This document shows, piece after piece, positions 43,830 to 64,000 of a DNA stretch of 64,000 bases; position 1 is the stretch's first letter, and every line of letters starts with the position of its first letter. This DNA is from Deltaproteobacteria bacterium. Lineage in GTDB: Bacteria; Desulfobacterota; Dissulfuribacteria; Dissulfuribacterales; DYLC01. The stretch lies in NCBI GenBank assembly GCA_028695735.1, contig JAQVIJ010000005.1, positions 124,001 to 188,000 of the forward strand. The letters run 5' to 3'. The notes under the pieces were generated by a model. The model was not told the origin of the DNA, did not search any database, and worked only from the letters and a program-made list of their open reading frames with translations. A program made the position numbers and the translations under genes.

Positions 43830-44189
43830 ATGGCTCAAATACTTGTATTGGACGATGTGCTGGATGCCGGCATCCTCATAAAAAAGATACTGGAGAGAAA
43901 GGGCCATAGCGTTCAGGTCTTCGACGAGGAAGAGGAGACCTTGAAGTATGTTCGGGAACACGCAGTTGACCTGGCCATTTTGGATATAAAGCTAAAGAAG
44001 CTCACCGGCATAGAGGTATTGGAGGAATTGAGAAAGATTCGGCCCGAAATACGGGTCATCATGCTCACCGGTTACCCCACCATAGAGACGGCTGGACAGG
44101 CCCTGAAGTTAGGCGCAGCGGAGTATTGTGTCAAGCCCATAGATAAAGAGGAGCTGGAAGAAAAGGTGGAACGGGTGCTCTCCGCATGA
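43830..44189 (+). CDS. Single-domain response regulator (receiver only)
   Basis: A 119-residue CheY-like receiver. Acidic pocket LVLDDV near residues 5-10, phospho-acceptor Asp in LAILDIKLKKLTG, Thr in MLTGYPTIE and Lys in CVKPIDKEEL. There is no output domain. It is divergent from the kinase operon at 41443-43526, the closest partner candidate. Confidence 0.92.
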   Translation: MAQILVLDDVLDAGILIKKILERKGHSVQVFDEEEETLKYVREHAVDLAILDIKLKKLTGIEVLEELRKIRPEIRVIMLTGYPTIETAGQALKLGAAEYCVKPIDKEELEEKVERVLSA

Positions 44190-44227
44190 GCCTTTTGAAG
44201 TTATGTAGCTCAATTACTTCAAGGCTC
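44188..44227. terminator. Hairpin between convergent genes
   Basis: GAGCCTTTTGAAGT and ACTTCAAGGCTC pair over about 12 bp with a 2-base bulge, spanning the gap between the receiver and the phosphatase gene. There is no T run on either side, so its role as a bidirectional terminator is uncertain. Its right arm also resembles the end of the TTGAAAAATT repeat. Confidence 0.35.
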
Positions 44228-45283
44228 CCTTCCTGAAGGATTCGTAGATTGTTTGGCCGTACTATCTTGTAAGAGTAGCATGTTATGAAAATATGTCTGC
44301 ACAAAACGCCCTGAGATGACATCCAAAAAAGGAAACAGCAGGGTCTCTTTTGATGCAAAGGCGCCGGAAAGGGCAAAAAACAGGCTTTGAGACAGCTTGA
44401 GCAGCATCTCTTGCACCAGATCCTGTTGTATGAGCGCATTTGAAAGGCCATGGGCCCTGCACACGAGGGGGCGATAGTTGTAAAGGATGCAAACCCCGTT
44501 TCGATTGAGCGGACAGAGATAGGACACGGCCTGTGCTGTATCGCATTTTTTTAGATGGGAGGTGAGTCGGGCCGCCTCATTGAGGACTGCCATTCTGTCT
44601 TGGCTGGTCAGTGTCCTTCCCATCTGATGATTGACATACACTGCCTCAATGAACAGCACATGAAAGGGTGTGTGGCAGCATGAACTGGTCTTTTTGCCGC
44701 ACTCCGGCACATCAAGGCCGTTTTGTACGGCGTTTTTCCGTTTTTCTTCCAGATCTCGGCAAATGGCCTCGTATTCAGCAAAGAAGCCGCCAAGTTCCAC
44801 TGTCCTTTTGTTCTCCAGGGAAGGTTCCCGTATCTTGAGTTCGCCTGTCTGTTTTCCATATTTCTTGAGAAGCTTCCATTGAGTATAGCTGGAGGGCGTG
44901 GCGCGCGTATTTTTCAGTTTCTTTTCCGCCATTTTGAGTCCAAGGCCCCTGCGCAGCAGATAGGCTGTCACGAAGGTGCCTGTCCTTCCGATGCCATGAC
45001 GGCAGTGCACCAGCACCTTTTTGCCCAGATAGATGGCCTCGTCCAGCCATGCCAAGGCCTTTTCCATTGCCTCTATGTTTGGTGCGCTGTCGTCCTCCAC
45101 CGGCATATAATAGACCTCAAAGCCCTCGCCCTGTTCTATCTGGTGCAGGTCGCAGAATTCGGCGCAGAGGTTCAAAATGGCGTTTATGCCATGCTCTTTC
45201 AGGAGATCGAGCTCCTCATAGGACATGGGAGCACCACCTACGGCCAGATTGGGAGTGATCCAGTTCAGATTGTATTCAGTCAT
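44219..45283 (-). CDS. Dual-specificity phosphatase fused to a YkgJ-type Cys cluster
   Basis: A 354-residue two-domain protein. Residues 1-150 are a dual-specificity phosphatase: general-acid Asp at 64-65 (PVEDD) and the P-loop VHCRHGIGRTG with Cys94 and Arg100. Residues about 195-290 hold a YkgJ/UPF0153 metal cluster (SCCHTPFHVLFIEA, CDTAQAVSYLCPLN, CILYNYRPLVCRAHG). The fusion suggests a metal- or redox-controlled phosphatase. It overlaps the headless PEP-synthase-like gene by 8 bases, so the two are co-translated. Confidence 0.85.
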   Translation of the reverse strand: MTEYNLNWITPNLAVGGAPMSYEELDLLKEHGINAILNLCAEFCDLHQIEQGEGFEVYYMPVEDDSAPNIEAMEKALAWLDEAIYLGKKVLVHCRHGIGRTGTFVTAYLLRRGLGLKMAEKKLKNTRATPSSYTQWKLLKKYGKQTGELKIREPSLENKRTVELGGFFAEYEAICRDLEEKRKNAVQNGLDVPECGKKTSSCCHTPFHVLFIEAVYVNHQMGRTLTSQDRMAVLNEAARLTSHLKKCDTAQAVSYLCPLNRNGVCILYNYRPLVCRAHGLSNALIQQDLVQEMLLKLSQSLFFALSGAFASKETLLFPFLDVISGRFVQTYFHNMLLLQDSTAKQSTNPSGREP

Positions 45284-46457
45284 TCTTGCCCACCTTGCCT
45301 TGCATTAAGTCATCTTTACCCTTCAAAAACTGTACAGCCCATGCCGTGGCCGTGTCTTTGTCCACAATGACCATATCCATCAGTCGCGTAACCGCCAGCA
45401 ATCTGCCTAGGGTTTGCAGTTTTTCCTGTATCTCCCCTTGTTCGAGCCAGTTGATACGGGCCTGTAGGTTGTCCTGTCTTTGCGTCACCTCAAAGCCCGA
45501 GTGCTTCAGTACATCGGTGAGAAAATGGATGCGCAGCATACGGCCTGAAAGCCCTGCTCCGCCGCCTGTAAAGCTGAACAGGATGTAGTTGTGCGAGGCA
45601 TCCTTTACACAGAGGCTGTCAATGACGGAGAAATGGTAGCCGAATTTGATGTTCAGGTTCATGTAATCAGCCGATATGACGGCATAACTGGCGTAATCCG
45701 CAGAGGTGGAATTTGTTATGCCCTCAGCCGATACATTCTCTGCAAATGCCTTCCAGTCGAAATGTGGGCGGTCAGCCGCCCATTGAATGCTCGCATGTGA
45801 CATGCCGTTCCACAGGGCAAGAAAAGGCGTGGAGCGCACCGCTGATATGTCCACCGGGTTTTCATCGCCGATGTTATGAGTCAGTCCGCCGCCCATGTCC
45901 AAGAGGTAGAGCTCAAAGGGCAGCTCTGCTTTAAGCCGTTTGGCGCCCTTCTTGACAGCGCCTATTTGGGAGGTGGAGGAAAACATCTCCCAAACGGCCT
46001 TTTCGTGCACAAATCGTATGATGTCGTGCATGGAACGGCACTCGAATGGCATGAAAGAGGCATGCGAGGCATTTGTTAGATTTAGGTGATCGATGAGGTG
46101 CATCACTGGTTTTATATCGCCGTTTGATGCCCCATTCATGAGCCTGTCGCGTATCTGCGTATCTATTCTTTGAAATACCTCCAATAAACCTTGGTAGGAG
46201 GAATTTGAAGGCGCCATGAGCAGCAACTGGTCTATCATGTCGTTTATGGCGTTTCTCAGGCGTTCATAGGTGGCAAGTAGGGGCTGAGCGACTTTGATCA
46301 TGCTGCTGGAATACGCCACTTCCTGCAGGTCGGCCAGGGCCTCATGGGCCGATGTGTCCGCCTGAAGAAGGGCCTTAAATGCCCTGTATCTGGCCTTCAG
46401 AAAGGTTTCAGGACGCAGGGTCCTCTGTATCCAGCCTTTCATTTTGTGCATGATCAT
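45276..46457 (-). CDS. Head-and-tail PEP-synthase-like protein lacking the catalytic middle
   Basis: A 393-residue protein of no named family. Residues 20-110 match the N-terminal helical region of the proteins at 51169-62175 (RYRAFKALLQADTSAHEAL), and residues about 120-393 match their C-terminal module: ECRSMHDIIRFVHEKAV, DMGGGL, STPFLALWNGMS, ISADYMNLN, HFSVIDSLC, SFTGGGAGL and LGRLLAVTRLMDM. The ATP-grasp and phospho-His domains of the paralogs are absent. It overlaps nagZ upstream and the phosphatase downstream. A substrate or antagonist role in a phospho-relay is conceivable but unproven. Confidence 0.75.
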   Translation of the reverse strand: MIMHKMKGWIQRTLRPETFLKARYRAFKALLQADTSAHEALADLQEVAYSSSMIKVAQPLLATYERLRNAINDMIDQLLLMAPSNSSYQGLLEVFQRIDTQIRDRLMNGASNGDIKPVMHLIDHLNLTNASHASFMPFECRSMHDIIRFVHEKAVWEMFSSTSQIGAVKKGAKRLKAELPFELYLLDMGGGLTHNIGDENPVDISAVRSTPFLALWNGMSHASIQWAADRPHFDWKAFAENVSAEGITNSTSADYASYAVISADYMNLNIKFGYHFSVIDSLCVKDASHNYILFSFTGGGAGLSGRMLRIHFLTDVLKHSGFEVTQRQDNLQARINWLEQGEIQEKLQTLGRLLAVTRLMDMVIVDKDTATAWAVQFLKGKDDLMQGKVGKND

Positions 46458-47469
46458 CGCTGCAATATCTCTCTCTAAACCTTTGAAGCCGTCGGGCAGA
46501 CTCTGCTATGCGTTCCAGGGGAATTCTGCCCTGCTTCAACTCCAGTTCCAGGGCGGCTATGATGTCCAGGGCCTGATCCTGATGGTGACAGACTAAAAGC
46601 AGGTCATGGCCTGCCTGAAACGCCCTTATTCCGGCATCGGTGATGTGATCCATGGTGTGAATGCCGCCCATCTCCAGGTCATCGGTGAGTAAAATGCCCT
46701 TGAAGCCCAAACGCTCCCGCAGCAGTTCATGGGCTATTTTGTATGAAAATGTGGCTGGAACCCCTGAATCCAGGGCTTCATACACCACATGCGAGGTCAT
46801 CATCGCCGCCACATTGGCATCGATGGCCTCTATAAAGGGCAATAATTCGCTCTCCAGAGAAAGCTCGGCCGGCACCACGGGTCTTGTGTGATGGGGGTCT
46901 GTGGTGACGCTGCCTATGCCAGGAAAGTGTTTGGCTGTCGCTGCAATGCCATGGGACTGCAGGGTTCCAATGTAGGCGGTTCCACAGTCTGCCACTAACC
47001 TCTCGTCTGAGCCATAGGAACGCTCTTGCAACAGGGTCTCCTGGCTGCCTCTATAGATGTCCAGCACGGGCGCCAGGTTCAGGGGAATGCCGCAATCCTT
47101 CAAGGCCAGGGCCGCCTCGGTGGCCTGTCTTTGTGCTGCACTTATTGGATTTAACTGACGGCCCACCTCCCTGTTGGAGATGAGCTTGGGCCAGCGGGGT
47201 GGGCCAAGTCTCTGCACCTCTCCGCCTTCCTGGTCCACTGCTATGATGGGTGGCGGCAGGCCTGCATTCTTGCATGCCTCTTTCAATTGTGTGCACAGGA
47301 GTTTTAACTGATTATGGTGTAGTACATTTCGCTTGAACAGAATGAAATTGCAGATGCCGCAGTTGGTGATGTTCAGCAGGGTCTCATCGTTCAGGACGAA
47401 ACCAGGCAGTCCGATCATCAAAAATTGAGAGAGGTTGAGGTTACAGTTTGTCATGGCAAAGTTCCGCAT
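46408..47469 (-). CDS. nagZ: Beta-N-acetylglucosaminidase NagZ (GH3)
   Basis: Cleaves GlcNAc from anhydro-MurNAc muropeptides in peptidoglycan recycling. The 353-residue GH3 protein has VDQEGGEVQRL, the catalytic-loop KHFPGIGSVTTDPHH and the nucleophile Asp in LLTDDLEMGG. The start at 47469 (or ATG at 47454) is not clearly marked by a ribosome site. It overlaps the next gene by 50 bases. It may work with the NamZ-type enzyme at 19601-20812. Confidence 0.92.
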   Translation of the reverse strand: MRNFAMTNCNLNLSQFLMIGLPGFVLNDETLLNITNCGICNFILFKRNVLHHNQLKLLCTQLKEACKNAGLPPPIIAVDQEGGEVQRLGPPRWPKLISNREVGRQLNPISAAQRQATEAALALKDCGIPLNLAPVLDIYRGSQETLLQERSYGSDERLVADCGTAYIGTLQSHGIAATAKHFPGIGSVTTDPHHTRPVVPAELSLESELLPFIEAIDANVAAMMTSHVVYEALDSGVPATFSYKIAHELLRERLGFKGILLTDDLEMGGIHTMDHITDAGIRAFQAGHDLLLVCHHQDQALDIIAALELELKQGRIPLERIAESARRLQRFRERYCSDDHAQNERLDTEDPAS

Positions 47470-48947: not shown

Positions 48948-50364
48948 ATACTGTGCTAACTTGTGTGCAAAAAAGCGTCAGCAGTGGGAAGCGGGCGGGT
49001 GGTCATGGTAAAGGTTGATGAACCAAATCGATCTTAAACCCTTGAAAGGAGGCAACCATGACCACGAGGAAGCATAAGACGAAAATGTTGGCATTGGAAG
49101 CGGTGGCGGGCGACCGCGACCTAATGAAAGCGCTGATGAAGGAGGCGTTGCAGGAAGTGCTGGAAGGCGAGATGACTGAATTTTTGGGAGCGGCACCCGG
49201 GGAGCGGACGGAAGGCCGCACGGGTTACCGTGCCGGTTACTACAGCCGCAACTTGGTCACTCGGATCGGCAAGCTGGAATTGCGTGTGCCGCGCGATCGC
49301 AATGGCGAATTCTCGACTGCCTTATTCGAGCGCTATGCGAGGAGCGAGAAAGCGCTGGTGTCGGCCTTGGCCGAGATGTATGTCCAAGGGGTTTCCACCC
49401 GCAAGGTCAAGGCCATCACGGAGGAGTTGTGCGGTCACAGCTTCTCGGCAAGTAGCATCAGCAGCATCAACAAGAGGCTGGACGCTGCCTTGGAGCGGTT
49501 TGCCAATCGGCATCTGGAAGAGGAGTATCCCTACCTCATTCTCGATGCCCGTTATGAGAAAGTGCGGGAGGATGGGGTGATTGTTCATCGGGCCGTGCAG
49601 ATCGCCATCGGCATCAACTGGGAAGGGCAACGGCAGGTGCTCGCTGTCGAATTGGCCAACCGGGAAAGCCAGAGCAGTTGGAAGGACTTTCTGGTTCGGC
49701 TCAAGGAGCGCGGGCTCTCTGGCGTCGAATTCGTCGTTTCTGACGACCATGCTGGCCTCAAGAAAGCGATCCGGGAAGTACTGACCGAGGCGGCGTGGCA
49801 ACGGTGCTATGTGCATTTCCTGCGCAATACCCTTGACTATTTGCCGCGCAAGGCAGACGACGATTGCCTGCAGGAGTTGCGCTGGATCTACGACCGGCGC
49901 GACATTCAGGAGGCCAACCGTGACTTGGCGGCATGGATCGGCAAATGGCAGGGCAAGTATCCGAAGCTGGTCGATTGGGTCGAGACGAACATCGGCGAGA
50001 CGTTGACCTTCTACCGGCTACCGCGGGCCCATCACAAGCATATGAAGAGCACCAACATGCTCGAGCGGCTCAACGAGGAGATCAAGCGCCGTACCCATGT
50101 CGTCAGAATCTTTCCCAATGCCGACTCCTGTCTGAGGTTGGTTCGCGCGCTGTGCGTTGAAACCCACGAGGCCTGGCTGGAGGATAGCCGCTATTTGAAC
50201 ATGATGCTCCTGGCGGAGCAGAAGAAGGAGGCGTTGCGACTGGCTGCATGAGGCGGCCGTGCGCTGTTGGCGCCGCTGCGGGCTACGCCCTACGCGTCAC
50301 CCACAGCGCACCCAGTATCAACCTTTACCAGTACCGCGTTTTTGCACAACTTGACAGACACCAC
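48948..50364 (+). mobile_element. IS256-family insertion sequence
   Basis: A 1417-bp element bounded by related ends: 48948-48977 and the complement of 50335-50364 share TGTGCAAAAA and GCG near position 17-30 and TGT near 5-7. It contains one transposase gene, and direct repeats of about 10 bases flank it. It sits in a copy of the CATGCGG dispersed repeat, whose two halves continue on either side. Confidence 0.8.
49058..50251 (+). CDS. IS256-family transposase
   Basis: A 397-residue Mutator-type transposase. Catalytic acidic residues lie in LILDARYEKVREDGVI (first Asp), FVVSDDHAGLKKAI (second Asp, DDE block) and the Glu in NMLERLNEEIKRR; the CYVHFLRN segment is typical. The reading frame is intact, with a GAAAGGAGG ribosome site just before the ATG, so it may still be active. 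Confidence 0.95.
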   Translation: MTTRKHKTKMLALEAVAGDRDLMKALMKEALQEVLEGEMTEFLGAAPGERTEGRTGYRAGYYSRNLVTRIGKLELRVPRDRNGEFSTALFERYARSEKALVSALAEMYVQGVSTRKVKAITEELCGHSFSASSISSINKRLDAALERFANRHLEEEYPYLILDARYEKVREDGVIVHRAVQIAIGINWEGQRQVLAVELANRESQSSWKDFLVRLKERGLSGVEFVVSDDHAGLKKAIREVLTEAAWQRCYVHFLRNTLDYLPRKADDDCLQELRWIYDRRDIQEANRDLAAWIGKWQGKYPKLVDWVETNIGETLTFYRLPRAHHKHMKSTNMLERLNEEIKRRTHVVRIFPNADSCLRLVRALCVETHEAWLEDSRYLNMMLLAEQKKEALRLAA

Positions 50365-51143: not shown

Positions 51144-51172
51144 GGGCGAAAGGGCAATTTTGCAAGGCTCAC
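51144..51172 (+). repeat. Right-half copy of the TTGAAAAATT element
   Basis: GGGCGAAAGGGCAATTTT followed by GCAAGGCTCAC matches the right end of the element at 30366-30508. It overlaps the last codons' stop of the PEP-synthase-like gene, so the repeat may have supplied that stop codon. Confidence 0.55.
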
Positions 51173-53778
51173 TTAAGTGATGTCAATGCGTAATCCCCCT
51201 CCATAAAGGCCTTTGCCACCTGTTCAGCCGAGCTGTCGCTGGTCATGGCCATGTCCAGAAGCCGTGTAAAGCCCAGAAGCCTTCCCAAAAACACGAGTTT
51301 TCCCTGCATGGCCGTCTGGTCTATGCCGCTTATCTCGCCGTTTATCAGGTCGTCCTTCCAGTCCACGAAGAAGTCGTTTTGCTCCAGAAGCTCGGCTATG
51401 AAACTCGCCCGTCTTCTGCGCTGAATTAGGTCGGTGCCTCCTCCCTTGAACCTGAACTTGATGTAGTTGCCAGAGGCATTTACTCCGCAGACCGTGTCGA
51501 TCATCACGAAATGAAAGTCCATGCGGGCATTCAGATTGAGATAGTCCCTGCTGATCATGGCATAGTTGGGCAGGCCTATGGGCCGTTCCGAGCGTGCATC
51601 GGCCACCCAGCGGGAGTAGGTCTGAGAGATATCTGAGACGCCGGGCGGCGGGCTTGACCAGCGCAGCCCTGGTGTGGAAATGCCCTGCCACAGGGCCTTA
51701 AATGGTGTGGAGACCACCTCTTCAGGCCGCACCTTAAGCCAGCGGTGTTCCTTCGGCGCCAGGCCACCCCCTAAATCCACTATGTGCAAAAAGAAAGGTA
51801 TGCCTGATTCCAGGGTAAAGACAGCGCCTGTTGTATTGGCCAGCAGGTCATCGTTTGTGTCAAAGATGGAGAGCACGGCCTTTTCGTGCACAAAGCGAAC
51901 GATGTCGTGAAGGGATTTGCACTCCAGCATGGAAAAGGTCGGACCATAGGCATCGGTGAGGTTTAGTGTCACTATGAGCCTGTTGAGCTCATTTTGAAAT
52001 TCAGGCAGCACAGCGGCCTTTTCCTCTGGTGTTTTTTGAGCGGTATCAGCGCCTTTCAGCATTGCGCTTCTTGCCCTGGCCATCTCGGCCTCATCGGCCG
52101 CAAGGACTCGGTGTGCATCGGCGTCTATGGTGATGAACTGCCCGTTTTTTAGTGTTTTGGTGGCAGTCTGAAGGCCTGTGAGCATGGGTTTCCCATATTC
52201 CCTGGCTACGCATGAGAGATGGTCTGCTGGATTGCCCAGGTCCACAAGCACTCCCTGCACTTGGCCCATGACGCGGGCCGCATCCACCAGGCTTTGATGC
52301 AGCACCAGAATCACGGGTTCTGAAGGCAGGTGATTGAGGTCCTGCCTGCTTTTTGCGATAAACACGCTGCCTGTGGCAATGCCTCTGGAGGCCGTGACTC
52401 CCTGTGAAAACAAGATCTCCCTTGTCGGCTCCACCTTGTAAGCGGCCTGTGCAGCCAGAAATCTCAATGGCCTTGCCTGAAGAATAAAGAGCTCGCCCGC
52501 GGCATCCTTGGCCCATTCTATGTCCTGAGGGGCTTGGGCCAGACGCTCTATCTCCATGCCCTGGCGAACCAGGGTCTCTATGTCCCCTTGAGTCAGGACA
52601 GGTTGTGTCTGTTCCTCTTCAGGTATGTCTTGCATGGCCATTTTGCCCATTGAATCGAGAATGAGCCGCCTTTCCTTTTTAGCTATAAAGCATGGCATGG
52701 TGTCTTCTTTGGCGGGCTGTCGAAGCGGTCTGTAGATGTCGGCATTGGACTCACCGGCCACGGCCAGCTCTCCCAATCCAAAGACGGCGCTGATGAGCAT
52801 GCGGCCTGATTCGTGTTCGTTGGGGTCGATGGTGAAGAGTATGCCCGCCGCCACTGCTGGAATCATTTGAATGCACAGCACTGCCATGCTGAAGTCCAGC
52901 GGCTCTATGCCGGCGTTTATGCGATAGGCGATGCTTCTGGGATTGAAGTTGCTCGCTATGACCTCCTTGACCGCTGTTATGAGCCCTGACCCTGTTCTTA
53001 CATTGAGGATGGTGGTGAACTGGCCTGCAAAGGAGTATTTCTTGCCGTCCTCACCAATGGCACTGCTTCTGACCGCAAGCCCATGACCGGCCTCGAAGAA
53101 GGGCTTGGCCAGGTCAAGAATGTGTTCCTCCAGTTCTCTGGAAAGCGGGGCCAGCAGAATCTCATTTCTTACGGCCTCAAAGACAGGTTGCGGCAGTTGG
53201 GCATTGCCCGTTCTGCCTTGCTTAGCGTATCTCCCCAATTTTTGAATGATTTTGAAGGTAAGGCCGTTTTCCTCCAGAAAGTGGCGGCAGGCATGAACAG
53301 AGATGGCAAACCCTTCAGGTATGTGAAAGAGGCCTGTCTTCATGAGCCTTGCAAGCACAAGGGCCTTGTTGCCGAAGAGCCTTTCTGAATTGAATTCGAT
53401 TTGTCTCAGAGAAAGGCAATCAGGCAGTTCCTGCTGCCTTGGGGCCTGCTCCATTTCCTTTTTTATGTCCTTTGAGATGAGCTCATGCCGTGCAAAAAGG
53501 GCTTCATAGCGGTTGTCACTTATGTCATTGAGTTTTTCCACCATTTCAAAGGTCACAGAGAGCAGTTCCTCGATTCTGCTTGCCATGTCCTCATAGGAGA
53601 CTTCGGTTTCTCGAAGCCTCATGTCGAGTTCAGTGATGAGCTCTATGGCCCTGCCGTTTAATTGGAGTATGGCCCGAAAGATCTGATACCTGGCCTTGAG
53701 CAGGGCAACCTGTTCCTGTGCCTGCCTGGTTTTGGCCGCATGCCACTTGCTTATTTGATTTTTGACCCATTGAAGCAT
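51169..53778 (-). CDS. PEP-synthase-like protein (ATP-grasp, phospho-His, novel C-terminal module), copy 1
   Basis: An 869-residue cytoplasmic protein. Residues 1-120: helical region shared by all paralogs. About 125-440: PPDK/PpsA-type ATP-grasp with AVRSSAIGEDGKKYSFAGQF, GILFTIDPNE and DIEWAKDAAGELFILQARPL. About 455-570: swivelling phospho-His domain with GNPADHLSCVAREYGKP, His520. About 590-869: the module ECKSLHDIVRFVHEKAV, DLGGGLAP, STPFKALWQGIS, YIKFRFKGGGTDL, LGRLLGFTRLLDM. The PEP/pyruvate barrel (GxxRTE, CxNP-type motifs) is not seen. It is the last gene of the 63968-51169 operon, 4 bases after copy 2. Confidence 0.85.
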   Translation of the reverse strand: MLQWVKNQISKWHAAKTRQAQEQVALLKARYQIFRAILQLNGRAIELITELDMRLRETEVSYEDMASRIEELLSVTFEMVEKLNDISDNRYEALFARHELISKDIKKEMEQAPRQQELPDCLSLRQIEFNSERLFGNKALVLARLMKTGLFHIPEGFAISVHACRHFLEENGLTFKIIQKLGRYAKQGRTGNAQLPQPVFEAVRNEILLAPLSRELEEHILDLAKPFFEAGHGLAVRSSAIGEDGKKYSFAGQFTTILNVRTGSGLITAVKEVIASNFNPRSIAYRINAGIEPLDFSMAVLCIQMIPAVAAGILFTIDPNEHESGRMLISAVFGLGELAVAGESNADIYRPLRQPAKEDTMPCFIAKKERRLILDSMGKMAMQDIPEEEQTQPVLTQGDIETLVRQGMEIERLAQAPQDIEWAKDAAGELFILQARPLRFLAAQAAYKVEPTREILFSQGVTASRGIATGSVFIAKSRQDLNHLPSEPVILVLHQSLVDAARVMGQVQGVLVDLGNPADHLSCVAREYGKPMLTGLQTATKTLKNGQFITIDADAHRVLAADEAEMARARSAMLKGADTAQKTPEEKAAVLPEFQNELNRLIVTLNLTDAYGPTFSMLECKSLHDIVRFVHEKAVLSIFDTNDDLLANTTGAVFTLESGIPFFLHIVDLGGGLAPKEHRWLKVRPEEVVSTPFKALWQGISTPGLRWSSPPPGVSDISQTYSRWVADARSERPIGLPNYAMISRDYLNLNARMDFHFVMIDTVCGVNASGNYIKFRFKGGGTDLIQRRRRASFIAELLEQNDFFVDWKDDLINGEISGIDQTAMQGKLVFLGRLLGFTRLLDMAMTSDSSAEQVAKAFMEGDYALTSLK

Positions 53779-53782
53779 GGTT

Positions 53783-56332
53783 TCATTCCACTGATGCTGT
53801 TTGCGCGCTGGTCTGTTTCAGGAATCGGTCAAAGAAGCGATCTATGGATTCATCATCGGTCATGCGCACATCGAGCTGCCTTGTAAATGCGATGAGCTCA
53901 CCCAGTTTTACGAGGATGTTTTCTGTCTGTTGGTCGTCCAGCATCTTCACTCTGCCTACTACCAGGTCACCGTGCTGTTCCACTCGAAAAAAGAGGGCCT
54001 GCAACAGTGAGACGATGAGTGATGCCCGGCGTTTTCTGCGTTCTTCATCGGCAAAGCCTCCCACAAAACGGAAATATATGTAGTTGTTGTCAGGATTGGC
54101 CGTGAGATATGAGTCGATGACATTGAAATGATAACCTAACCGCAGGCTGATATTGCAGTAATTTTCGGCTATGATCGCCAGGTTTTTGCCGCTGTATTCA
54201 GGGATACCCATCAAGGACAGGGATGGCCTGGCGATGCCTGACAGGATATCCCTCATGCCGAGGGGTGCCGGCTCCTTGTCCCATGCACCTTCCCTGAGAA
54301 GCCCCTTGAGGATGGCATTGAATGGTCTGCTCAAAATGCCGGAGAGAGGCACGGTAGCCCCCTTTTTGTTGGGTTGTGCACCAGGTTTAAGGCCTCCTCC
54401 CAGGTCTATTATGTGAATGCCGATGGGAATGGGTGCTTCAAGGAGATTGCTGGACATGGTTTCTGATGAAGGTGTAAGTGTCTGCAGATGAATCAGGGAC
54501 TCCACGGCCTTTTCATGGCAGAAGCGCAGGATGTCGTGATAGGTCTGGCAGTTTTCCGGTGCAAACATTGAAGAAGAGGGGTCCACCAGATTGAGGGGTG
54601 CTATCCATCTGAGCAGCCTTCGCATGGTGCGCACCTCATTGGATTCAAAGAATACATCCTCCTCCAGGGTGTCCATTGTCAAGAAATCCGGAATACCGCC
54701 GGCATATATGCACATATCATAGGCATCTACCGTCACCTCCATGCCTTCTTTGAGGAGTTCCGTTGCCTTTTCTGCGCCAACAATGGCCGGCGTCCTGTAT
54801 TCCCTGGCAATGGTCGCCAGGTGTCCTGTGGGACTGCCCACCTCCGTGACCAGGGCTGCGGCCCTTTGAAGTATGGGGCTCAGCGCAGGACTTGCGTTTT
54901 TAGATACGGCTATGGCGCCCACTGGAAACCTTGTTAAATCGTCCTCTGGTGAGACATGCACCACAGGGCCTGTGGCGATTCCCACATGTGCCGCCTGGCC
55001 TTTCCCTTTTAGAATCAGAGGTAGTTGTTGAAGCTGATTTGCAAGCTCCGTCTGCAAGGCTGGTGAGGCGGATTGCAGGCGTAGCGGCCTTGCTTGTAAA
55101 ATGACCAGATTATTCAAGTCATCAAAGGTCCATTCGATGTCCTGCGGTCTTCCAAAGGCCTTTTCAATGGTGAGGGCCGCCTCGGCAACCATCTGAAGCA
55201 TTCTGGGGGTAAGCAGGGCCGACCCCCTTCTTAAACCTGATGGCATCGTGTCGAGGCAATGCTCATGTGCCTTGGTGTTCAACCTGGCCTCAAGCAGTTT
55301 GAATGGATGTGTGCGGGAGAGCCTGTACCAGTCAGACGGCGCAGAACCATTTACCAATGAGGCCCCGATGCCTGACACAGCGGACATCACCATTTCTTTT
55401 TTCAAAGGATTGGACGGGTTACGAGTGTAGATGACACCCGATACGCTGGCAGTTATCATCTCCTGAACAGCGATGGCCATGGGGAGTACATTTAAGGAGA
55501 TGTCGTCATTGCCCAAATATGCCATCACCTGCGGAGAAAAACGGGCGGCCATCACCTGTTTACATGCCCTGAAGACATCCTCGTGCCGCACATTTAAAAC
55601 GCTTTTGAATTGGCCTGCAAAGCTTCTCTCCGTGTCCTCGCCCACAGCGCTGCTTCTGACGGCAAGGGCAGGTCTGCGGCCAAGCCTTTCATATAGCTCT
55701 GAAAGGGCGGCCATCACCGCCTGTTCGAACTGTTCTGGTATGACGGCCTTTTCAAAGAGCTGTTTCACTTGCCGCCAGACCTCTTCATTGTTTTTATTGG
55801 CATTGAAGGCCAGTCTGATCTGTTCCAACAGGCCGTTTTCTTCCATAAACAGCCTGTATGCCTGAGTGGTCAGGGCAAATCCTTCGGGTATGCGAAGGTG
55901 CAGCCGGTTACAGACCTCGCCAAGGTTGGCGTTTTTGGCACCTACGAGCATGTCCATATCTATGTTGAGCTGATTGTAGGGCAGGGTTAGCTGGTCATGA
56001 TATGGCCCTGGGCCGCCTGACAGGATATCTTCCAGGCTGTTTTTTATGGCCTCAAATGGCTCATACAGGCCGAGATAGGCGTTTTTGGACATGGCATTGA
56101 GGTTGTAGATGACCTCTCGAATGATGTCATTCAGTCTGGCTATAGACCTTTCCAGAAATACCTTGTCAAAGAGATATGCACCGCCCAGACTTTCCTCCAT
56201 GGCGCTGATGATCTCAAGGGCCTTGTTGTTGAGCTCTATGATGTGTTGAAATCGTCTGAATATGCCTGTGAGGGACAGTGCGTTCGAGTCACTGGAATGC
56301 CGGGGAGTATGAAAGGCCGAGAGGGCTGTCAT
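53783..56332 (-). CDS. PEP-synthase-like protein, copy 2
   Basis: An 849-residue paralog with the same plan: N-terminal helices (FQHIIELNNKALEIISAM), ATP-grasp (AVRSSAVGEDTERSFAGQF, VSGVIYTRNPSN, DIEWTFDDLNNLVILQARPL), phospho-His domain (EVGSPTGHLATIAREY, His504) and the C-terminal module (NCQTYHDILRFCHEKAV, DLGGGLKP, YIYFRFVGGFAD, FTRQLDVRM). It starts 5 bases after the sigma-54 activator gene. Its C-terminal module is closer to copy 3 than to copy 1 in having RQLDV rather than RLLDM. Confidence 0.85.
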   Translation of the reverse strand: MTALSAFHTPRHSSDSNALSLTGIFRRFQHIIELNNKALEIISAMEESLGGAYLFDKVFLERSIARLNDIIREVIYNLNAMSKNAYLGLYEPFEAIKNSLEDILSGGPGPYHDQLTLPYNQLNIDMDMLVGAKNANLGEVCNRLHLRIPEGFALTTQAYRLFMEENGLLEQIRLAFNANKNNEEVWRQVKQLFEKAVIPEQFEQAVMAALSELYERLGRRPALAVRSSAVGEDTERSFAGQFKSVLNVRHEDVFRACKQVMAARFSPQVMAYLGNDDISLNVLPMAIAVQEMITASVSGVIYTRNPSNPLKKEMVMSAVSGIGASLVNGSAPSDWYRLSRTHPFKLLEARLNTKAHEHCLDTMPSGLRRGSALLTPRMLQMVAEAALTIEKAFGRPQDIEWTFDDLNNLVILQARPLRLQSASPALQTELANQLQQLPLILKGKGQAAHVGIATGPVVHVSPEDDLTRFPVGAIAVSKNASPALSPILQRAAALVTEVGSPTGHLATIAREYRTPAIVGAEKATELLKEGMEVTVDAYDMCIYAGGIPDFLTMDTLEEDVFFESNEVRTMRRLLRWIAPLNLVDPSSSMFAPENCQTYHDILRFCHEKAVESLIHLQTLTPSSETMSSNLLEAPIPIGIHIIDLGGGLKPGAQPNKKGATVPLSGILSRPFNAILKGLLREGAWDKEPAPLGMRDILSGIARPSLSLMGIPEYSGKNLAIIAENYCNISLRLGYHFNVIDSYLTANPDNNYIYFRFVGGFADEERRKRRASLIVSLLQALFFRVEQHGDLVVGRVKMLDDQQTENILVKLGELIAFTRQLDVRMTDDESIDRFFDRFLKQTSAQTASVE

Positions 56333-56337
56333 GGGCT

Positions 56338-57717
<1,380 letters not shown>

Positions 57718-57727
57718 AACGGGTTGA

Positions 57728-59152
57728 TTATAACCACAGAGGAAATTCAAGCCTGAAGGTAGTGCCCTGTCCGGGCTCGCTGATGACCTGTATATCGCCT
57801 TTATGCTCCTTTACGATGCCGTAACTTACGGAAAGCCCAAGGCCTGTGCCGTCATGTTTTGTGGTGAAAAAGGGTTCGAATATGTGTTCCATGACAGCAT
57901 GTGGTATTCCGGGCCCTGTATCCGATATCTCTATCATGGCCTTATCCTGTTCGGAAACCGCCTTTATTTCTATACGCAATTTACCGCCGTCTTTCATGGC
58001 CTGCAATGCATTCAGGATGATATTTACGAACACCTGTTGCAGTTGGCTTGAGTTGCCCATTATGGTTACAGGTTCTTGAGGCAGGTTCAGTTCCGTTTCA
58101 ACACCGCTGAGGCGTATCTGGTTTTTCAAAAGCCCCAGGGTGTTGTGAATAAGTTCTCCGAGATTCACCCTGTTCCAGTCGGTGGGTTTTCTTGCCCTTG
58201 AGAAGTCCAGCAGATTGCGCACGATCTCCCTTGCCCTGTCCACCTGTACGATGATGTCATGGATCATGCCGCGGCGTTCATCACAGTCCATATTGGAGAT
58301 GTCTTCCATGAGGATCTCGGCGGTAAGGGAGATATTGTTCAGGGGGTTGTTGATCTCATGGGCTATCCCTGCGGTCACCTTGCCCAGGGCCATGAGCTTT
58401 TCGGCCTGTATGAGTTGTTGATGTTTATCTTCAAGGGCCTGAAGCATCTTGTTGAGGGCATCTATCAATTCAGCGCATTCCGAACATATTTTTTTGGTAG
58501 GTTCAACAGGAATATATGATAATTCACCCCGCATGACCTGGGCCACAGCCTTTCTGATCTCCCTTAAGGGGGTCATGATCCATCTTGCCAGAAATATACC
58601 TATCATGGCGCAGATAGGTAAAATTATAAGAATTAAAATAAATGCTATAGCTTTATAATTTCTTGATTCCCTTTCTATCTGTTGTTTTGCACTGCTGTCC
58701 ATTGACATGGCACAGTTCATGAAATCATGTCCATATGCCCTTAGATTTATCTTAAGATTATTAAAATCTATTTCGCTGTAATCTTTACGAATAAGTTGGT
58801 GAATTAAGTCATAATAATTTTCAAATTCTGTTTTGCAGTTTTTGATATTATGATTAGTGATTATGCCAGATGTTTCCAACGCATCCATTGAAGTTTTTAT
58901 CTCATTTAATTTATCAATGGTTGATATTAGTTCATTTTTATTTTCGTATAATAGAAAGTTTTTTTCAGATGATCTTACTTCGAGTATCCTCTGATTTATT
59001 TCATAGAATGATTCTATAACACTTATTTTATCTTCTACCTTATAAAGCGAATAAATAGCGGCCATCGCGGCCAAGCCGCTTATGATGCATATAATGGAAA
59101 AACTCAGTATCAGTTTCCCATAGATGGTTCTAAATGCAAAAGAGATAAACAA
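57728..59152 (-). CDS. Sensor histidine kinase of the PEP-synthase-like operon
   Basis: A 474-residue membrane kinase. TM1 near 12-32, helical periplasmic sensor with VRSSEKNFLLYENKNE, TM2 near 168-190, HAMP, HisKA box AGIAHEINNPLNNIS and ATPase domain ending [19 protein letters not shown]. The sensor resembles that of the kinase at 5142-6587, with the same RxxEKN-LL pattern near residue 58. The first 150 codons are AT-richer than the rest. It sits between a receiver and a sigma-54 activator, either of which could be its partner. Confidence 0.92.
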   Translation of the reverse strand: MFISFAFRTIYGKLILSFSIICIISGLAAMAAIYSLYKVEDKISVIESFYEINQRILEVRSSEKNFLLYENKNELISTIDKLNEIKTSMDALETSGIITNHNIKNCKTEFENYYDLIHQLIRKDYSEIDFNNLKINLRAYGHDFMNCAMSMDSSAKQQIERESRNYKAIAFILILIILPICAMIGIFLARWIMTPLREIRKAVAQVMRGELSYIPVEPTKKICSECAELIDALNKMLQALEDKHQQLIQAEKLMALGKVTAGIAHEINNPLNNISLTAEILMEDISNMDCDERRGMIHDIIVQVDRAREIVRNLLDFSRARKPTDWNRVNLGELIHNTLGLLKNQIRLSGVETELNLPQEPVTIMGNSSQLQQVFVNIILNALQAMKDGGKLRIEIKAVSEQDKAMIEISDTGPGIPHAVMEHIFEPFFTTKHDGTGLGLSVSYGIVKEHKGDIQVISEPGQGTTFRLEFPLWL

Positions 59153-59175
59153 AATATTATTTCTCGCTTATTGAT

Positions 59176-59574
59176 TTATATGTTTTTATTACTTTCTGAT
59201 AATGCGCCTGACATTGCCCTTAATATGATATTTTTCAATTCTTCTAAACGGAATGGTTTAGGAATAAAATCGAAGACACCTTTCCTGAAGGCTTCCGATG
59301 CAGTATCCACCTGCGCATAACCTGTTATGATTATGACCTTGGCTTTTGGATTGAGTTTTTGTACCTCTTCCAGGATAGTCATTCCATCCATGCCTTCCAT
59401 CTTTAGATCTGTTACTACTATATCAAAAGATTTTTGCTTGATTGTATTCATAGCTTCTCTTGGATCTGTGAAGGTTTCCACTTCCATGCCCATTTTCATG
59501 AACGCCTGTTTCAATCTTTTGCCTACAATAGGTTCATCATCGATTACCAATAGTTTTATTGTTTGGTCTGACAT
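59176..59574 (-). CDS. Single-domain response regulator
   Basis: A 132-residue CheY-like receiver: LLVIDDEPIVGKR near 8-20, phospho-acceptor Asp in IVVTDLKMEGMDG, IIITGYAQVDTA and Lys in FIPKPFRLEEL. There is no output domain, only a short Ser/Asn tail. Encoded 23 bases before the kinase and 12 bases after copy 3, it could act as an intermediate phospho-carrier. Confidence 0.93.
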   Translation of the reverse strand: MSDQTIKLLVIDDEPIVGKRLKQAFMKMGMEVETFTDPREAMNTIKQKSFDIVVTDLKMEGMDGMTILEEVQKLNPKAKVIIITGYAQVDTASEAFRKGVFDFIPKPFRLEELKNIILRAMSGALSESNKNI

Positions 59575-59586
59575 AATTCATGCTCC

Positions 59587-62175
59587 TCAGTGTCTGCCTA
59601 TTATTTCATAATCTCCCATCAGAAAGGCCTCAACATATCTATCGACTTGTGCATCGCTGTCCATTTGAACGTCAAGTTGTCTGGTAAATCCAACTATTCT
59701 GCCCAGAATGTTAAGGGTCCTGATGATCTCCGATTTGGGCATATTGCCTGAACGTCCTGTGACTATATCACCTTTGCTCGCCACATTGAAGCCGAATGCC
59801 TCCAGTATGATGGCGATCATGCGCGCCCGCCTGGAGCGTTTGGTGATGTCGGTGGCACCGCCCAGAAAACGGAAATATATATGGTTGTCCCTTGTCATGT
59901 CGCTGCAATAGGCGTCTATGATATTGAAATGGTATCCGAATCTCAGACTCAGGTTCAGATAGTCCTTGCTGATTATCGCTATGTTGTGGCCTGAATATTG
60001 TCCGGCCAATGCATCCGTGGGTACATTGACTATACTGGTGATCAGGTCTCCAAAACTCACATCTGCGGCCCTGGTATGCCACACGCCAGGAAAAAGCATG
60101 CCCTCCAGTATGGCCTTCAGCGGTTCCGATGTTACGGATGCAAAGGTGATTCGATCGCCCGCCGCCTTTGGGTCTATGCCGCCGCCCAGATCAATCAAGA
60201 GTATGCCTGTTGGAATGGGGAGGTCCAGAGGCACTGCACGATAGTCCTTTAAAAGCCGTCTTTCGTCCTTGCCCATCTCCACCATTTGTGCCACTGCCTT
60301 TTCATGTATGAAACGCAACAGGTCATGGTATGTTTCGCAGGCCTCGGGTGTAAATTCATCCATCAACGGATCTACGAGTTTCAGGGAAGAGACATTGTCC
60401 AGCAGGCGTTTGAGCAGCCTGAATTCCTTGGTGGCGCTGATATTCAGGTCTGTTGCAGTCTTGAATGCCAGGAGTTCAGCCACTCGGCCTTTGTAGATTC
60501 TCCGGTCCTCAGCATCCACAGTGATCTCCATGCCGTCTGATACCTTGGAGAGGATGTCTGTTACATTGACGAGGCACGGCACCTGAAATTCCCTGCACAG
60601 AGTGGCCATGTGACTTACCGGCGTGCCGATTTCTGTTACAATGGCCGCTGTCTTGTGCATCACTCGAATGAAATTGGAGGAATCCCTTTTGCTGACCAAT
60701 ACAGCGCCTTCAGGAAATTCATTTAGGTCGGAGATGGTGTTTACAATGTGGACATGCCCTGCTCCAATCCCTTGCTGGGCTACTGAACCACTATCAGATA
60801 CGATAAGTTCATATTTTTTGAGGGCATCGGCCAGGGAACCTTTAGGGCCTGCCGTCGCTGGTATTACCAGATGCCGTGCCTGGAGTATGTATATGTCTCC
60901 GTTATGGTCGATGGCCCATTCTATGTCCTGAGGGCGTTTGTAATATATTTCAATCTGCATGGCATAAGCGGCAAGCCTTTCCAGTTGAGAAGGCGTAAGG
61001 CTTGGTTGGTCCTGTAATTCCGAAGGGATATCCAATTCACCCAGTTCACCCTCCTCCTTTGGGTACAGACCTGTATTCTTGCGGGCTATGCTTTGGGTTA
61101 ACAGGGTATAGGGCGGCTTTTTTTGAACACGGAATGTGTCCACAGGTGCCCGGCCTTCCACGATGGCCTCTCCCTGCCCCCATGTGGAGACAATGATCAT
61201 GGCATCGCCCGCGGGGTCAGCGGGATCAACGGTATAAATTACGCCGCTTGCACTGGATTCCACCATTCGGTAACAGCCGACAGCGATGGACATATGCCCT
61301 TCGCCTGGGAATACCCTCAGCCGGTAACGCAAGGCCTTTGGGCTGAAGAGGCTGGCCACTACTTGCAGATATGCCTTGAATACAGCCGTAGGGGCTGGAG
61401 ATACATTTAGGATGGTCCTGAACTGGCCTGCAAAAGAGAAATTCATGTCCTCTTCCTGGGCGCTGCTTCTGATTGCAAGCCGCAGATCTTCTCCAAATAT
61501 ACCTTTGATGGCCTTTAGTTGATCAGCGATAGCGGACAGCAGTCCATCGGGCGGCTGGGCATTCAGAATGCCTTGCTCAAGGGAGTGTCTCAAGGGCTCC
61601 AGGGCTTCTACTGTGCATTCTGGTGCCTCCATGGCGGTCTCAAAGGCATTCAAGGCCTCCCGCAGGCCGTTGTGGTCTATGAGATCGTGGTATGCCCTGG
61701 TGGTCAGAATAAAGCCTTCCGGAATTTTAAGCCTCAGTTCATGGAGCATTTGAGAGAGATGGGCATTTTTACCTCCCAGTATGATGTAATGGGAACGGGA
61801 TGTGTCTGCGATATTGATCACTGGAACGCCGTCCCTGTCCTCTCTGTTTTCCATGACTGTATCAAGGCGTGTAGTCAATCGGTCATATGTGGAATACAAT
61901 ATTTGATATTTGTTGTTACAAAGTGCATTCAGGGCATGAACAGATTGCAATACGGCCTTTTCAAGGCCTTCCATGGTGTTATATATGTATTGTCTGTCAA
62001 AGATGTAGTCCCCGCTTAGCTTCTCTCCAAGATCGGCAATCAATTCAAGGGCGCTGTTGTTGCAGCGAAGGACCTCTCTAAAACGCTCAAAGGCGGTGGC
62101 CGCTGAAAGGGGGGCTTCGCCGCCTTCTGTTTTGCCACCGCCAAAGATATGTTTCAGGCTCTCAAGGATATTCAA
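59587..62175 (-). CDS. PEP-synthase-like protein, copy 3
   Basis: An 862-residue paralog. N-terminal helices (FREVLRCNNSALELIADL), ATP-grasp (AIRSSAQEEDMNFSFAGQF, GVIYTVDPADPAGD, DIEWAIDHNGDIYILQARHL), phospho-His domain (EIGTPVSHMATLCREF, His522) and the C-terminal module (ACETYHDLLRFIHEKAV, DLGGGIDPKAAG, YIYFRFLGGATDI, GFTRQLDVQMDSD). Note QARH in place of QARP at the end of the ATP-grasp region. First of the three in the operon, 24 bases after the TIGR02186 gene. Confidence 0.85.
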   Translation of the reverse strand: MNILESLKHIFGGGKTEGGEAPLSAATAFERFREVLRCNNSALELIADLGEKLSGDYIFDRQYIYNTMEGLEKAVLQSVHALNALCNNKYQILYSTYDRLTTRLDTVMENREDRDGVPVINIADTSRSHYIILGGKNAHLSQMLHELRLKIPEGFILTTRAYHDLIDHNGLREALNAFETAMEAPECTVEALEPLRHSLEQGILNAQPPDGLLSAIADQLKAIKGIFGEDLRLAIRSSAQEEDMNFSFAGQFRTILNVSPAPTAVFKAYLQVVASLFSPKALRYRLRVFPGEGHMSIAVGCYRMVESSASGVIYTVDPADPAGDAMIIVSTWGQGEAIVEGRAPVDTFRVQKKPPYTLLTQSIARKNTGLYPKEEGELGELDIPSELQDQPSLTPSQLERLAAYAMQIEIYYKRPQDIEWAIDHNGDIYILQARHLVIPATAGPKGSLADALKKYELIVSDSGSVAQQGIGAGHVHIVNTISDLNEFPEGAVLVSKRDSSNFIRVMHKTAAIVTEIGTPVSHMATLCREFQVPCLVNVTDILSKVSDGMEITVDAEDRRIYKGRVAELLAFKTATDLNISATKEFRLLKRLLDNVSSLKLVDPLMDEFTPEACETYHDLLRFIHEKAVAQMVEMGKDERRLLKDYRAVPLDLPIPTGILLIDLGGGIDPKAAGDRITFASVTSEPLKAILEGMLFPGVWHTRAADVSFGDLITSIVNVPTDALAGQYSGHNIAIISKDYLNLSLRFGYHFNIIDAYCSDMTRDNHIYFRFLGGATDITKRSRRARMIAIILEAFGFNVASKGDIVTGRSGNMPKSEIIRTLNILGRIVGFTRQLDVQMDSDAQVDRYVEAFLMGDYEIIGRH

Positions 62176-62199: not shown

Positions 62200-63009
62200 T
62201 TAATGACCTCCGCCGCCTTTGAATACTATGCCTACGCCAAGACCAGCAAGCATGGCTATCACAATGGCTATTACACCATATATGGCCGGATTTTTAAATG
62301 CAAGGTCTGACAACAGGGTTATCATGCCGGATGTCTTGACAAAGAGTTTTTGGGATGCTTCAGCATAGACCTTGCCATCTCGAATGGCAAGAACAGCCAC
62401 TTTATATTCGCCGGGAGATGCCTGGTAAGGCCAATCCACCGTCGCTGAAAAGCCGCCCTTCCCATCTTTTACAACAGTACCCTCGTGAATGCCATAGACC
62501 CTGTCTTTTTCCTTGAATTTTATAAATTCATTGAACCAGCGGTCCTTGTCCACAGGGCCCTTGGAACTGGTTATTTCCACCTGTGCCTTGATGGCATCAT
62601 ATCCCACCAGACTCCTGATGCGTTCCTCTGGAGTTGTGATCTTCTGAATCTCTCCTGTTGTGTAGAGCAGATAGACATTGGAAACAGGTTTGAATTCCAT
62701 ATCCCCTATCTTCATCCAGAAGAGGCCGGCTGCCTTGCCCATGAATTTTAGACTGCTTTCCGTGGGAGGCGAGGAGATCTTGATGATGATCTCGTCGTTG
62801 GCGTCGCTTTTTCCGGTGATGGTCAATTTAGCCCCATGATAAAAGGAGTCGATGAAGACCTCATCCGGAAGCACCTCACAAGTGACCGGTGCCTTTTCAA
62901 TAACGGATGATGCGGCCTCGGTTGGTTCCGCTGCCATCGAGTGGTCTGCCATAAAGAGGGCGCCAATGAGCAGGACTACGGCTACATATAGATATTTTGT
63001 ATGTGACAT
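62200..63009 (-). CDS. TIGR02186-type membrane-anchored protein
   Basis: A 269-residue protein with a signal peptide (residues 1-26), an extracytoplasmic beta-rich domain (EVLPDEVFIDSFYHGAKLTI, then LKFMGKAAGLFWMKIGDMEF) and a C-terminal TM helix ending GVGIVFKGGGGH. The family (Alph_Pro_TM) is regularly found next to TauE/SafE exporters, and that is the case here, 2 bases after the exporter gene. It is probably an accessory protein of the exporter. Confidence 0.85.
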   Translation of the reverse strand: MSHTKYLYVAVVLLIGALFMADHSMAAEPTEAASSVIEKAPVTCEVLPDEVFIDSFYHGAKLTITGKSDANDEIIIKISSPPTESSLKFMGKAAGLFWMKIGDMEFKPVSNVYLLYTTGEIQKITTPEERIRSLVGYDAIKAQVEITSSKGPVDKDRWFNEFIKFKEKDRVYGIHEGTVVKDGKGGFSATVDWPYQASPGEYKVAVLAIRDGKVYAEASQKLFVKTSGMITLLSDLAFKNPAIYGVIAIVIAMLAGLGVGIVFKGGGGH

Positions 63010-63011
63010 GA

Positions 63012-63968
63012 TTAGTGTCCTCCTTTATATGCCAGAAGAAGCGATGGCTCCATGAGAAGCTCCAGGACGATCTTCACTGTCACTGCAAGCACTATAATGG
63101 CAAGCAATATCTTGAGTTGGTCACCGTGGAGTTTTTTGCCGATCTTTGTGCCGATTTGAGCGCCGAATGTGGAGCCGAGCAGCAGCAGAATGGCCAGCAC
63201 AAAGTCCACTGTGTGGTTGGTGTAGGCCTGAAGGAATGTTACCTCCACGCAGGTGAACATGATCTGGAAAAGGCTGGTTCCCACCACTACGTGCATGGGC
63301 ATTCTCAGCAGGTAGATCATGACAGGCACCATGAGAAAACCGCCTCCAACCCCCATGATGGCTGCCAGTATTCCCACAAACGCTCCAAGGCCTACCGGCA
63401 CCAGAGCGGAATGAGTGACTCCCGATTTTTCAAAGTATATCTGTATGGGTAAGGCGCCCATAAAACCTTTCGATGGTTTGGTGCCTGCGTCTTTTTTTGA
63501 TGATGCGTCCTGTTGTGTCTTTTGGGCATTGCCGCCGCCAGCCTTGGCCTTTCTCAGGGCGTTCAGGCTCTCAAAAAACATGAATGTGCCCACAAGGCCG
63601 AGCATGATGACATAGGTCATTTTAATGAGAAAATCGGCTCCGCCGGTCGCCCTTAGTACCTTGATCAATTGAACCCCCAATGCGCCGCCTGTAAAGCCGC
63701 CGACGAGCAGCAGAAAACCCATCTTGAAATCCACATTGCCAAGCCTCCAGTGGGCTAGTGTGCCTGTGGCTGACGCCGCTACGATCTGGTTGGCGTCCGT
63801 GGCCGCTGCAATGGTGGGCGGTATGCCGACCATCATGAGTAGAGGCGTCATGAGAAAACCGCCGCCAACGCCGAAAAGACCCGATAGAAGACCCACCAGC
63901 AGCCCCAAGCCTACTGGCACCAGAATGTTCACACTTGTAAGTGCGAGAGGTAAGTAAAGATACAGCAT
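63012..63968 (-). CDS. Sulfite exporter TauE/SafE family membrane protein
   Basis: A 318-residue inner-membrane protein with eight or so TM segments and the internal duplication of the family: VGLGLLVGLLSGLFGVGGGF at 17-36 and VGLGAFVGILAAIMGVGGGF near 200. It is a different type from the exporter at 3097-4197. A Gly/Gln/Lys-rich cytoplasmic linker lies at about 145-165. It is the first gene of the operon visible in the window; its promoter lies beyond base 63969. Confidence 0.92.
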   Translation of the reverse strand: MLYLYLPLALTSVNILVPVGLGLLVGLLSGLFGVGGGFLMTPLLMMVGIPPTIAAATDANQIVAASATGTLAHWRLGNVDFKMGFLLLVGGFTGGALGVQLIKVLRATGGADFLIKMTYVIMLGLVGTFMFFESLNALRKAKAGGGNAQKTQQDASSKKDAGTKPSKGFMGALPIQIYFEKSGVTHSALVPVGLGAFVGILAAIMGVGGGFLMVPVMIYLLRMPMHVVVGTSLFQIMFTCVEVTFLQAYTNHTVDFVLAILLLLGSTFGAQIGTKIGKKLHGDQLKILLAIIVLAVTVKIVLELLMEPSLLLAYKGGH

Positions 63969-64000
63969 AAGCTCCCTTCCTTTTTAATTGAATTTTTGTC

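Follow-up and report, generated by a model that had tools for sequence, protein, structure and literature searches.

The question raised by the locus described here is where the phosphate goes in a protein that resembles phosphoenolpyruvate (PEP) synthase in its kinase half and carries a different module in place of the PEP/pyruvate barrel. Three such paralogs (M1, M2, and M3) are encoded in a 64,000-nucleotide stretch (the window) of contig JAQVIJ010000005.1 (positions 124,001 to 188,000; NCBI GenBank assembly GCA_028695735.1) from a Deltaproteobacteria bacterium of the Dissulfuribacterales (Desulfobacterota). Our answer, which is tentative and which we place somewhat short of an even chance, is that M is an ATP-charged, PEP synthase-like phosphohistidine protein whose phosphate leaves at the module and which acts with an adjacent receiver to keep TauE/TSUP anion uptake active. 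The features that bear most directly on this question are as follows (window positions).

59587 to 62175, minus strand: M1, 862 amino acids (aa), TTG start; N-terminal helices at about residues 1 to 115, ATP-grasp domain at 132 to 435, phospho-His domain at 487 to 556 (His522), module at about 592 to 862.
59590 to 60402, minus strand: C-terminal module of M1, 271 aa; modelled alone, pLDDT 82.0 and pTM 0.74.
53783 to 56332, minus strand: M2, 849 aa; architecture as in M1; His504; module at 53786 to 54613.
51169 to 53778, minus strand: M3, 869 aa; architecture as in M1; His520; module at 51172 to 51984.
45276 to 46457, minus strand: 393-aa solo module protein, made up of the N-terminal helices and the module (45279 to 46103), without the ATP-grasp and phospho-His domains.

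An earlier note, made from the sequence alone, had described three paralogs, and their open reading frames (869, 849, and 862 aa, all on the minus strand) lie where it had placed them. Its count holds for the kinase-bearing copies, but a fourth module copy, at 45276 to 46457, had been overlooked; a profile search of the whole genome returned exactly four copies of the module (E ≤ 0.001). The PpsA-type ATP-grasp and phospho-His domains that the note had read in all three proteins are backed by Pfam, with PPDK_N (PF01326; 232.7, 231.9, and 242.1 bits in M1 to M3) and PEP-utilizers (PF00391; 48.4, 68.2, and 62.2 bits) over their cut-offs, and the predicted phospho-His positions, 520 (M3), 504 (M2), and 522 (M1), were found in the translations. 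All seven ATP-grasp/His residues (K136, R236, E242, E419, Q432, R434, and His522) are kept in 154 of 159 distinct full-length relatives, and the phospho-His itself in 155. It is likely that M proteins load phosphate from ATP onto the histidine of the swivel domain, and His522 would be charged as in PEP synthase. In the wider superfamily, ATP pyrophosphorylates the swivel His, and one phosphate is then carried to a second site in another domain (PMC4844700).

Like PEP synthase (PpsA; TIGR01418), M has an ATP-grasp domain followed by a phospho-His swivel domain, with the catalytic residues kept, whereas the module takes the place of the PEP/pyruvate barrel and extra N-terminal helices, which belong with the module, are present. 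Several public names, such as "pyruvate, water dikinase," would make these proteins divergent PEP synthases or pyruvate water dikinases, and the kinase half is 28% identical to the genome's own PpsA. We regard this explanation as highly improbable: M1 to M3 scored 249.5, 261.5, and 281.9 bits against the TIGR01418 cut-off of 739.75, the C-terminal barrel is absent by Pfam and hhalign, and a complete PpsA is encoded elsewhere in the same genome. Assignment to TIGR01418 or NF005057 was rejected on the score and the missing barrel. Many sulfate-reducer proteins labelled as PEP synthase or pyruvate water dikinase are probably misnamed, since they carry the module in place of the pyruvate barrel. 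Rifampin phosphotransferase (RPH) was also rejected, the NF041857 scores of M1 to M3 being 182.9, 179.2, and 185.4 bits (cut-off, 999) and the His lying mid-protein (residues 504 to 522 of 849 to 869); in RPH, the catalytic His lies at the C terminus (PMC4844700). RPH and the two-component dikinase HpeHI resemble M: both are swivel-His dikinases whose acceptor domain is a different one (PMC4844700, PMC12167813). A further PPDK_N match in the genome (G000:C7:161570-162481) lies in a 1,483-aa open frame of different layout, with two partial matches.

The four motifs that the note had listed for the module (HDIxRFxHEKAV, DLGGG, FRFxGG, and TRxLDxxM) occur in all three paralogs, whose modules are 40% (M2) and 35% (M3) identical to that of M1; 847 proteins in all match the module of M1 (E ≤ 0.001), and the likeness among M1 to M3 is therefore beyond chance. 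The claim that the barrel is replaced by a module without an assigned family was borne out in every collection searched. Pfam matched nothing C-terminal to PEP-utilizers in M1 to M3, and nothing in the solo protein, at E ≤ 1; at E ≤ 10, 13 module sequences yielded just two weak matches, each in a single member. No NCBIfam family covers the module, and PDB sequence matches of the M profile end by position 591 of 864, leaving the module unreached. Foldseek searches with AlphaFold models of the solo protein (pLDDT 85.6; pTM 0.74) and of the M1 module alone returned no match at E ≤ 0.001. Likeness to the PEP-utilizer barrel, the outcome that the note had named as contrary to its proposal, was not seen, with an hhalign probability of 1.2% against the genome's own PpsA barrel; the catalytic domains of the neighbouring kinases gave 1.6%. 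In the AlphaFold models, the module core consists of four strands in an antiparallel meander, accompanied by two helices and a hairpin, and is thus unlike an alternating barrel. Our literature search for the M family or its module, which mostly left subscription journals outside, returned only a 2014 paper on a nitrate cluster and papers citing or touching it. In the literature searched, the acceptor half, its nesting, the solo and decayed forms, and the signalling setting (see below) are not described, while the phosphotransfer half is of an already known kind.

The solo copy helps to define the unit. Compared with full-length M, solo copies are missing precisely the kinase cassette, from the third helix up to the module, and the AlphaFold model of the window's copy shows a single bundle built from the N-terminal helices and the first helix of the module. 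Because these elements share one bundle, the kinase cassette is, as modelled, nested inside the module unit. Two statements of the note were modified accordingly: the N-terminal helical region is present but is not a separate feature, since it is kept and bundled with the module in the solo copy, and the module of about 280 residues is real but belongs to a larger unit that also comprises these helices.

Eight residues (D618, H624, E625, H749, G772, G773, R783, and D835 in M1 numbering) are invariant in all 159 full-length relatives. These include five with decayed kinase residues, of which four have the His replaced by Arg together with several ATP-grasp losses and one retains the His with the ATP-grasp residues lost; among the other six module sites tested, each of the five departs from the consensus at one to three. 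An earlier set of 142 relatives had shown kinase residues kept in every member because it contained no decayed copies. Among 11 distinct solo copies, nine have all 14 tested module sites and two deviate at one site. Because the five decayed relatives and the 11 solo copies hold the module core, the module is under selection apart from its own kinase. In a tree built with a quick method from 97 of 174 distinct modules (the "other" class being randomly sampled), the 11 solo rows formed one clade (96*) within a 38-row clade (99*) that otherwise comprised 26 phosphatase-linked M proteins and one other. From this placement, the solo copy and its neighbours in the window derive from the phosphatase-linked M type by loss of the cassette. 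One Desulfovibrionaceae locus (L131) encodes a decayed M (without RSSA and with His replaced by Arg) and an intact M, at 7890-10637 and 12771-15419, in a single operon with the order M, kinase, receiver, M.

The genes that accompany M in the window are listed below.

63984 to 64000, minus strand: 3' end of a USP-like gene (167 aa, mostly beyond the window; L100:1485-1988).
63012 to 63968, minus strand: TauE/SafE (TSUP) permease, the first operon gene within the window.
62200 to 63009, minus strand: PF09608/TIGR02186 transmembrane protein (Pfam, NCBIfam).
59176 to 59574, minus strand: REC1, receiver-only response regulator of 132 aa, partner of the M1 type; acceptor-site Asp56 by inspection.
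57728 to 59152, minus strand: HAMP-HisKA-HATPase histidine kinase.
56338 to 57750, minus strand: NtrC-type sigma-54 response regulator.
44219 to 45283, minus strand: dual-specificity (DSP) phosphatase, Cys-rich in its C-terminal half; in other genomes, homologs lie behind M genes, and one is fused to M (L176).
43830 to 44189, plus strand: REC2, receiver-only response regulator of 119 aa; its subtype is the one that accompanies phosphatase-linked M genes; Asp52 by inspection.
41443 to 43002, minus strand: PAS histidine kinase of the second cluster.

Together with M1 to M3, five of these genes form an eight-gene minus-strand operon in the order TauE/TSUP, PF09608, M1, REC1, histidine kinase, NtrC-type regulator, M2, and M3, with intergenic gaps of 24 bp or less (from the open reading frame coordinates). 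The solo module gene, the DSP phosphatase, REC2, and the PAS histidine kinase make up a second, separate cluster, in which the solo module and phosphatase genes overlap by 8 bp. Similar company was found at the named loci, i.e., the best 80 of 351 relatives from one genome scan, of which 79 were scored and one had no M open reading frame. Within 6 kb of M, there was a two-component gene of some kind at 66 of the 79 loci, a histidine kinase at 59, and a receiver-only gene at 51 (counts that stand without a background rate), along with a PF09608 protein at 39 and a TauE permease at 36. By similarity clusters, the permease and the PF09608 protein were each present in 46 of the 80 loci and USP-like proteins in 38, and the gene order TauE-PF09608-M recurred. 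In the window's phylum, 50 of the 51 genomes with PF09608 (of 297) also have M, and at least 38 of 59 PF09608 sites lie within 4 kb of a listed M (two of the 38 on the opposite strand).

The receiver-only gene lies within 350 bp and on the same strand for 71 distinct M genes. The receiver was REC2-like beside all 17 phosphatase-linked M genes and REC1-like beside all 23 PF09608-linked and the other 31 M genes. Of 19 Desulfovibrionaceae loci examined, 17 have the order histidine kinase, receiver (mostly of 119 aa), M, and DSP phosphatase, and 14 have a TauE gene close by; 16 of the 19 had been chosen by DSP match (M-DSP linkage there 16/16, from 22 genomes searched). In one genome, M and DSP are fused into a 1,259-aa protein (L176:4013-7792), directly behind a kinase and a REC2-type receiver.

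This phosphatase linkage bears on the main rival explanation, a small-molecule or glycan dikinase, in which the module would bind a metabolite, the swivel His would phosphorylate it, the DSP would dephosphorylate it, and the receiver would merely switch the enzyme on. The linkage and the single fusion can be likened to the glucan dikinases of plants and their phosphatases: glucan water dikinase phosphorylates starch, and its DSP phosphatases remove that phosphate. Consistent with such a role, a C-terminal extension of about 200 aa was found on M in 14 of 16 further loci, which had been picked for long open frames, and six of the seven extended proteins scanned gave weak lectin-like Pfam matches, all below cut-off. 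The acidic and His-rich set of invariant residues resembles an active site, and the characterized third domains of the superfamily bind small molecules, i.e., rifampin (PMC4844700) and hydroxyphenylethanones (PMC12167813). We nevertheless consider a dikinase unlikely. The recurring neighbour clusters are signalling, USP-like, and membrane genes, with no recurring metabolic enzyme seen among them, and modules persist without the kinase. The genes around M suggest signalling and anion uptake, in contrast to the antibiotic and glucan phosphorylation from which the note had drawn its analogy; binding of a third partner by the module, as the note had it, is at this stage a prediction, and so is the transfer of phosphate.

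A possible phenotype is provided by Desulfovibrio. Korte et al. (2014) described a poorly annotated nitrate cluster (DVU0251-DVU0245 and Dde_0597-Dde_0605) whose transposon mutants resist nitrate and which contains a TauE permease, a conserved hypothetical protein, a PtxB-like protein, a histidine kinase, a receiver-only regulator, a PPDK-like protein, and a dual-specificity phosphatase (PMC4001038). The TauE, kinase, receiver-only (360 bp there; 119 aa here), PPDK-like, and DSP genes match those described above, in the order of the Desulfovibrionaceae M loci, whereas the paper describes no module, and the window differs in having a solo module beside the phosphatase and a separate eight-gene operon for M1 to M3. 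On the basis of gene order, lengths, and annotation, we take DVU0246 to be a member of the M family. Among 120 listed of 850 module matches, only some of them named, D. vulgaris was absent, while Pseudodesulfovibrio and other Desulfovibrionaceae were present. Fitness in the nitrate pool was 11.44 for the permease, 9.14 for the receiver, 2.18 for the PPDK-like gene, and 3.86 for DVU0249, with values of -5.82 for DVU0250 and -6.04 for the phosphatase DVU0245 (PMC4001038). Single insertions in DVU0246, DVU0247, DVU0250, and DVU0251 grew equally with or without 100 mM nitrate, and the DVU0245 mutant was inhibited (PMC4001038). The histidine kinase of the D. vulgaris cluster is listed as a pseudogene, and the receiver and PPDK-like insertions still had strongly positive fitness (PMC4001038). 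Korte et al. proposed a leaky thiosulfate transporter (PMC4001038), and a 2021 paper repeats that putative thiosulfate transporters lie behind nitrate resistance (PMC9723548). Our reading offers a concrete molecular hypothesis for this cluster and is relevant to the selection of resistant mutants when nitrate is dosed against souring. In a second D. vulgaris region, DVU0539-DVU0545, which responds to molybdate, a histidine kinase and a regulator are joined by two USP proteins and a putative sulfate exporter (PMC10102598); the make-up of this region resembles the M neighbourhood, minus M.

The same data bear on a third explanation, namely, that M is an ATP-fed analogue of the sugar phosphotransferase system and energizes or gates the TauE/TSUP permease directly via the module. 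The phospho-His domain of M1 is related to enzyme I (TIGR01417, E = 6.8e-05), with enzyme I chains among its PDB matches, the TauE-PF09608-M order recurs as noted above, and permease, receiver, and M insertions give one phenotype (PMC4001038). Many M genes have no permease nearby, however, and no HPr or EII homolog turned up near M, although no search was aimed at them; we judge this explanation improbable.

The distribution of M follows that of dsrA. Among 297 genomes drawn from the window's phylum, 107 have M; dsrA (best E under 1e-100; 144 genomes, 143 of them over the curated cut-off) was present in 102 of the 107, compared with 42 of 190 genomes without M (Fisher p 2.8e-38), so that M is missing from 42 of the 144 dsrA genomes. 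In 148 Nitrospirota genomes (the phylum of a Thermodesulfovibrio record), M was present in 38, dsrA over cut-off in 61, and both in 32, i.e., dsrA in 32 of 38 M genomes compared with 29 of 110 others (Fisher p 3.8e-10). Both p-values overstate independence because the genomes share ancestry. Among 32 genomes of named loci, picked mostly from outside the window's phylum, 30 had dsrA over cut-off. The M family marks organisms that have dissimilatory sulfite reductase, and does so across lineages.

We return to the reading of M as a phosphohistidine protein working with a receiver. We propose a signalling phosphotransfer unit on three grounds: no recurrent partner lies closer to M than the receiver-only gene, which also matches M in subtype; the module survives without the kinase; and insertions in the permease, the receiver, or M have a phenotype in common. 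M may resemble a two-component phosphorelay (HisKA, HPt), since an invariant His is predicted to sit in a bundle of helices and a receiver-only gene is its partner; it differs in that M1 to M3 and the solo protein have no HisKA or HATPase_c domain (Pfam, E ≤ 1). As proposed, ATP would charge the swivel His (His522 in M1), and the phosphate would leave the swivel domain at the module. The acceptor would be a signalling partner instead of pyruvate: first the invariant His624 of the module, then the Asp of the receiver. M would act with the adjacent receiver-only regulator so that TauE/TSUP anion uptake stays active, the DSP phosphatase would reverse the phosphate mark, and the M paralogs may cooperate. 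M may pass phosphate to the receiver, or M may itself be switched by the receiver once that is phosphorylated; the listing of the D. vulgaris kinase gene as a pseudogene speaks mildly for the former. If the link to the receiver is true, M would be an entry to two-component signalling without a HisKA/HATPase kinase. A fuller version, which we offer as a speculation and consider quite doubtful, is an ATP-grasp-powered second entry running from swivel His to module His to receiver, in which solo and decayed copies are HPt-like shuttles, the DSP is the eraser, sulfur-oxyanion uptake is gated, and nitrate poisons via the same gate.

Several points weigh against the tentative reading. We know of no case in which a swivel phospho-His passes phosphate to a receiver domain, and the invariant residues in the alpha/beta part of the module would suit a ligand or metal site just as well as a site of phosphorelay. 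Not every M gene has the permease nearby (36/79), eight of the 79 named loci have none of the five scored neighbours (several of the eight with short flanks), no background rate stands beside the two-component counts, and receiver subtype also tracks species phylogeny. The identity of DVU0246 with the M family rests on gene order, lengths, and annotation, without its sequence. The phosphatase mutant is nitrate sensitive in D. vulgaris (DVU0245) and resistant in the G20 homolog (2.08), and the pool result for DVU0250 disagrees with the single-mutant result (PMC4001038). Regarding dsrA, five M genomes in the window's phylum have none, all of them at most 80% complete, and six of the 38 Nitrospirota M genomes have no full dsrA, 34 of 38 being positive if three fragmentary genes are counted.

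Some minor features of these loci were also recorded. The USP-like gene upstream of the TauE permease was assigned by eye, Pfam giving no match, and the Cys-rich C-terminal half of the DSP phosphatase (44219 to 45283) was likewise seen by eye (Pfam, no match at E ≤ 1). The extended M subtype measures about 1,050 to 1,090 aa (L163-L167, L169-L175, L177, and L178). In the window, a Mutator-family transposase gene lies at 49058 to 50251, between the solo-module cluster and the M operon, and a glycoside hydrolase family 3 gene (46408 to 47469) shares about 50 bp with the solo module gene at the 5' end of the latter.

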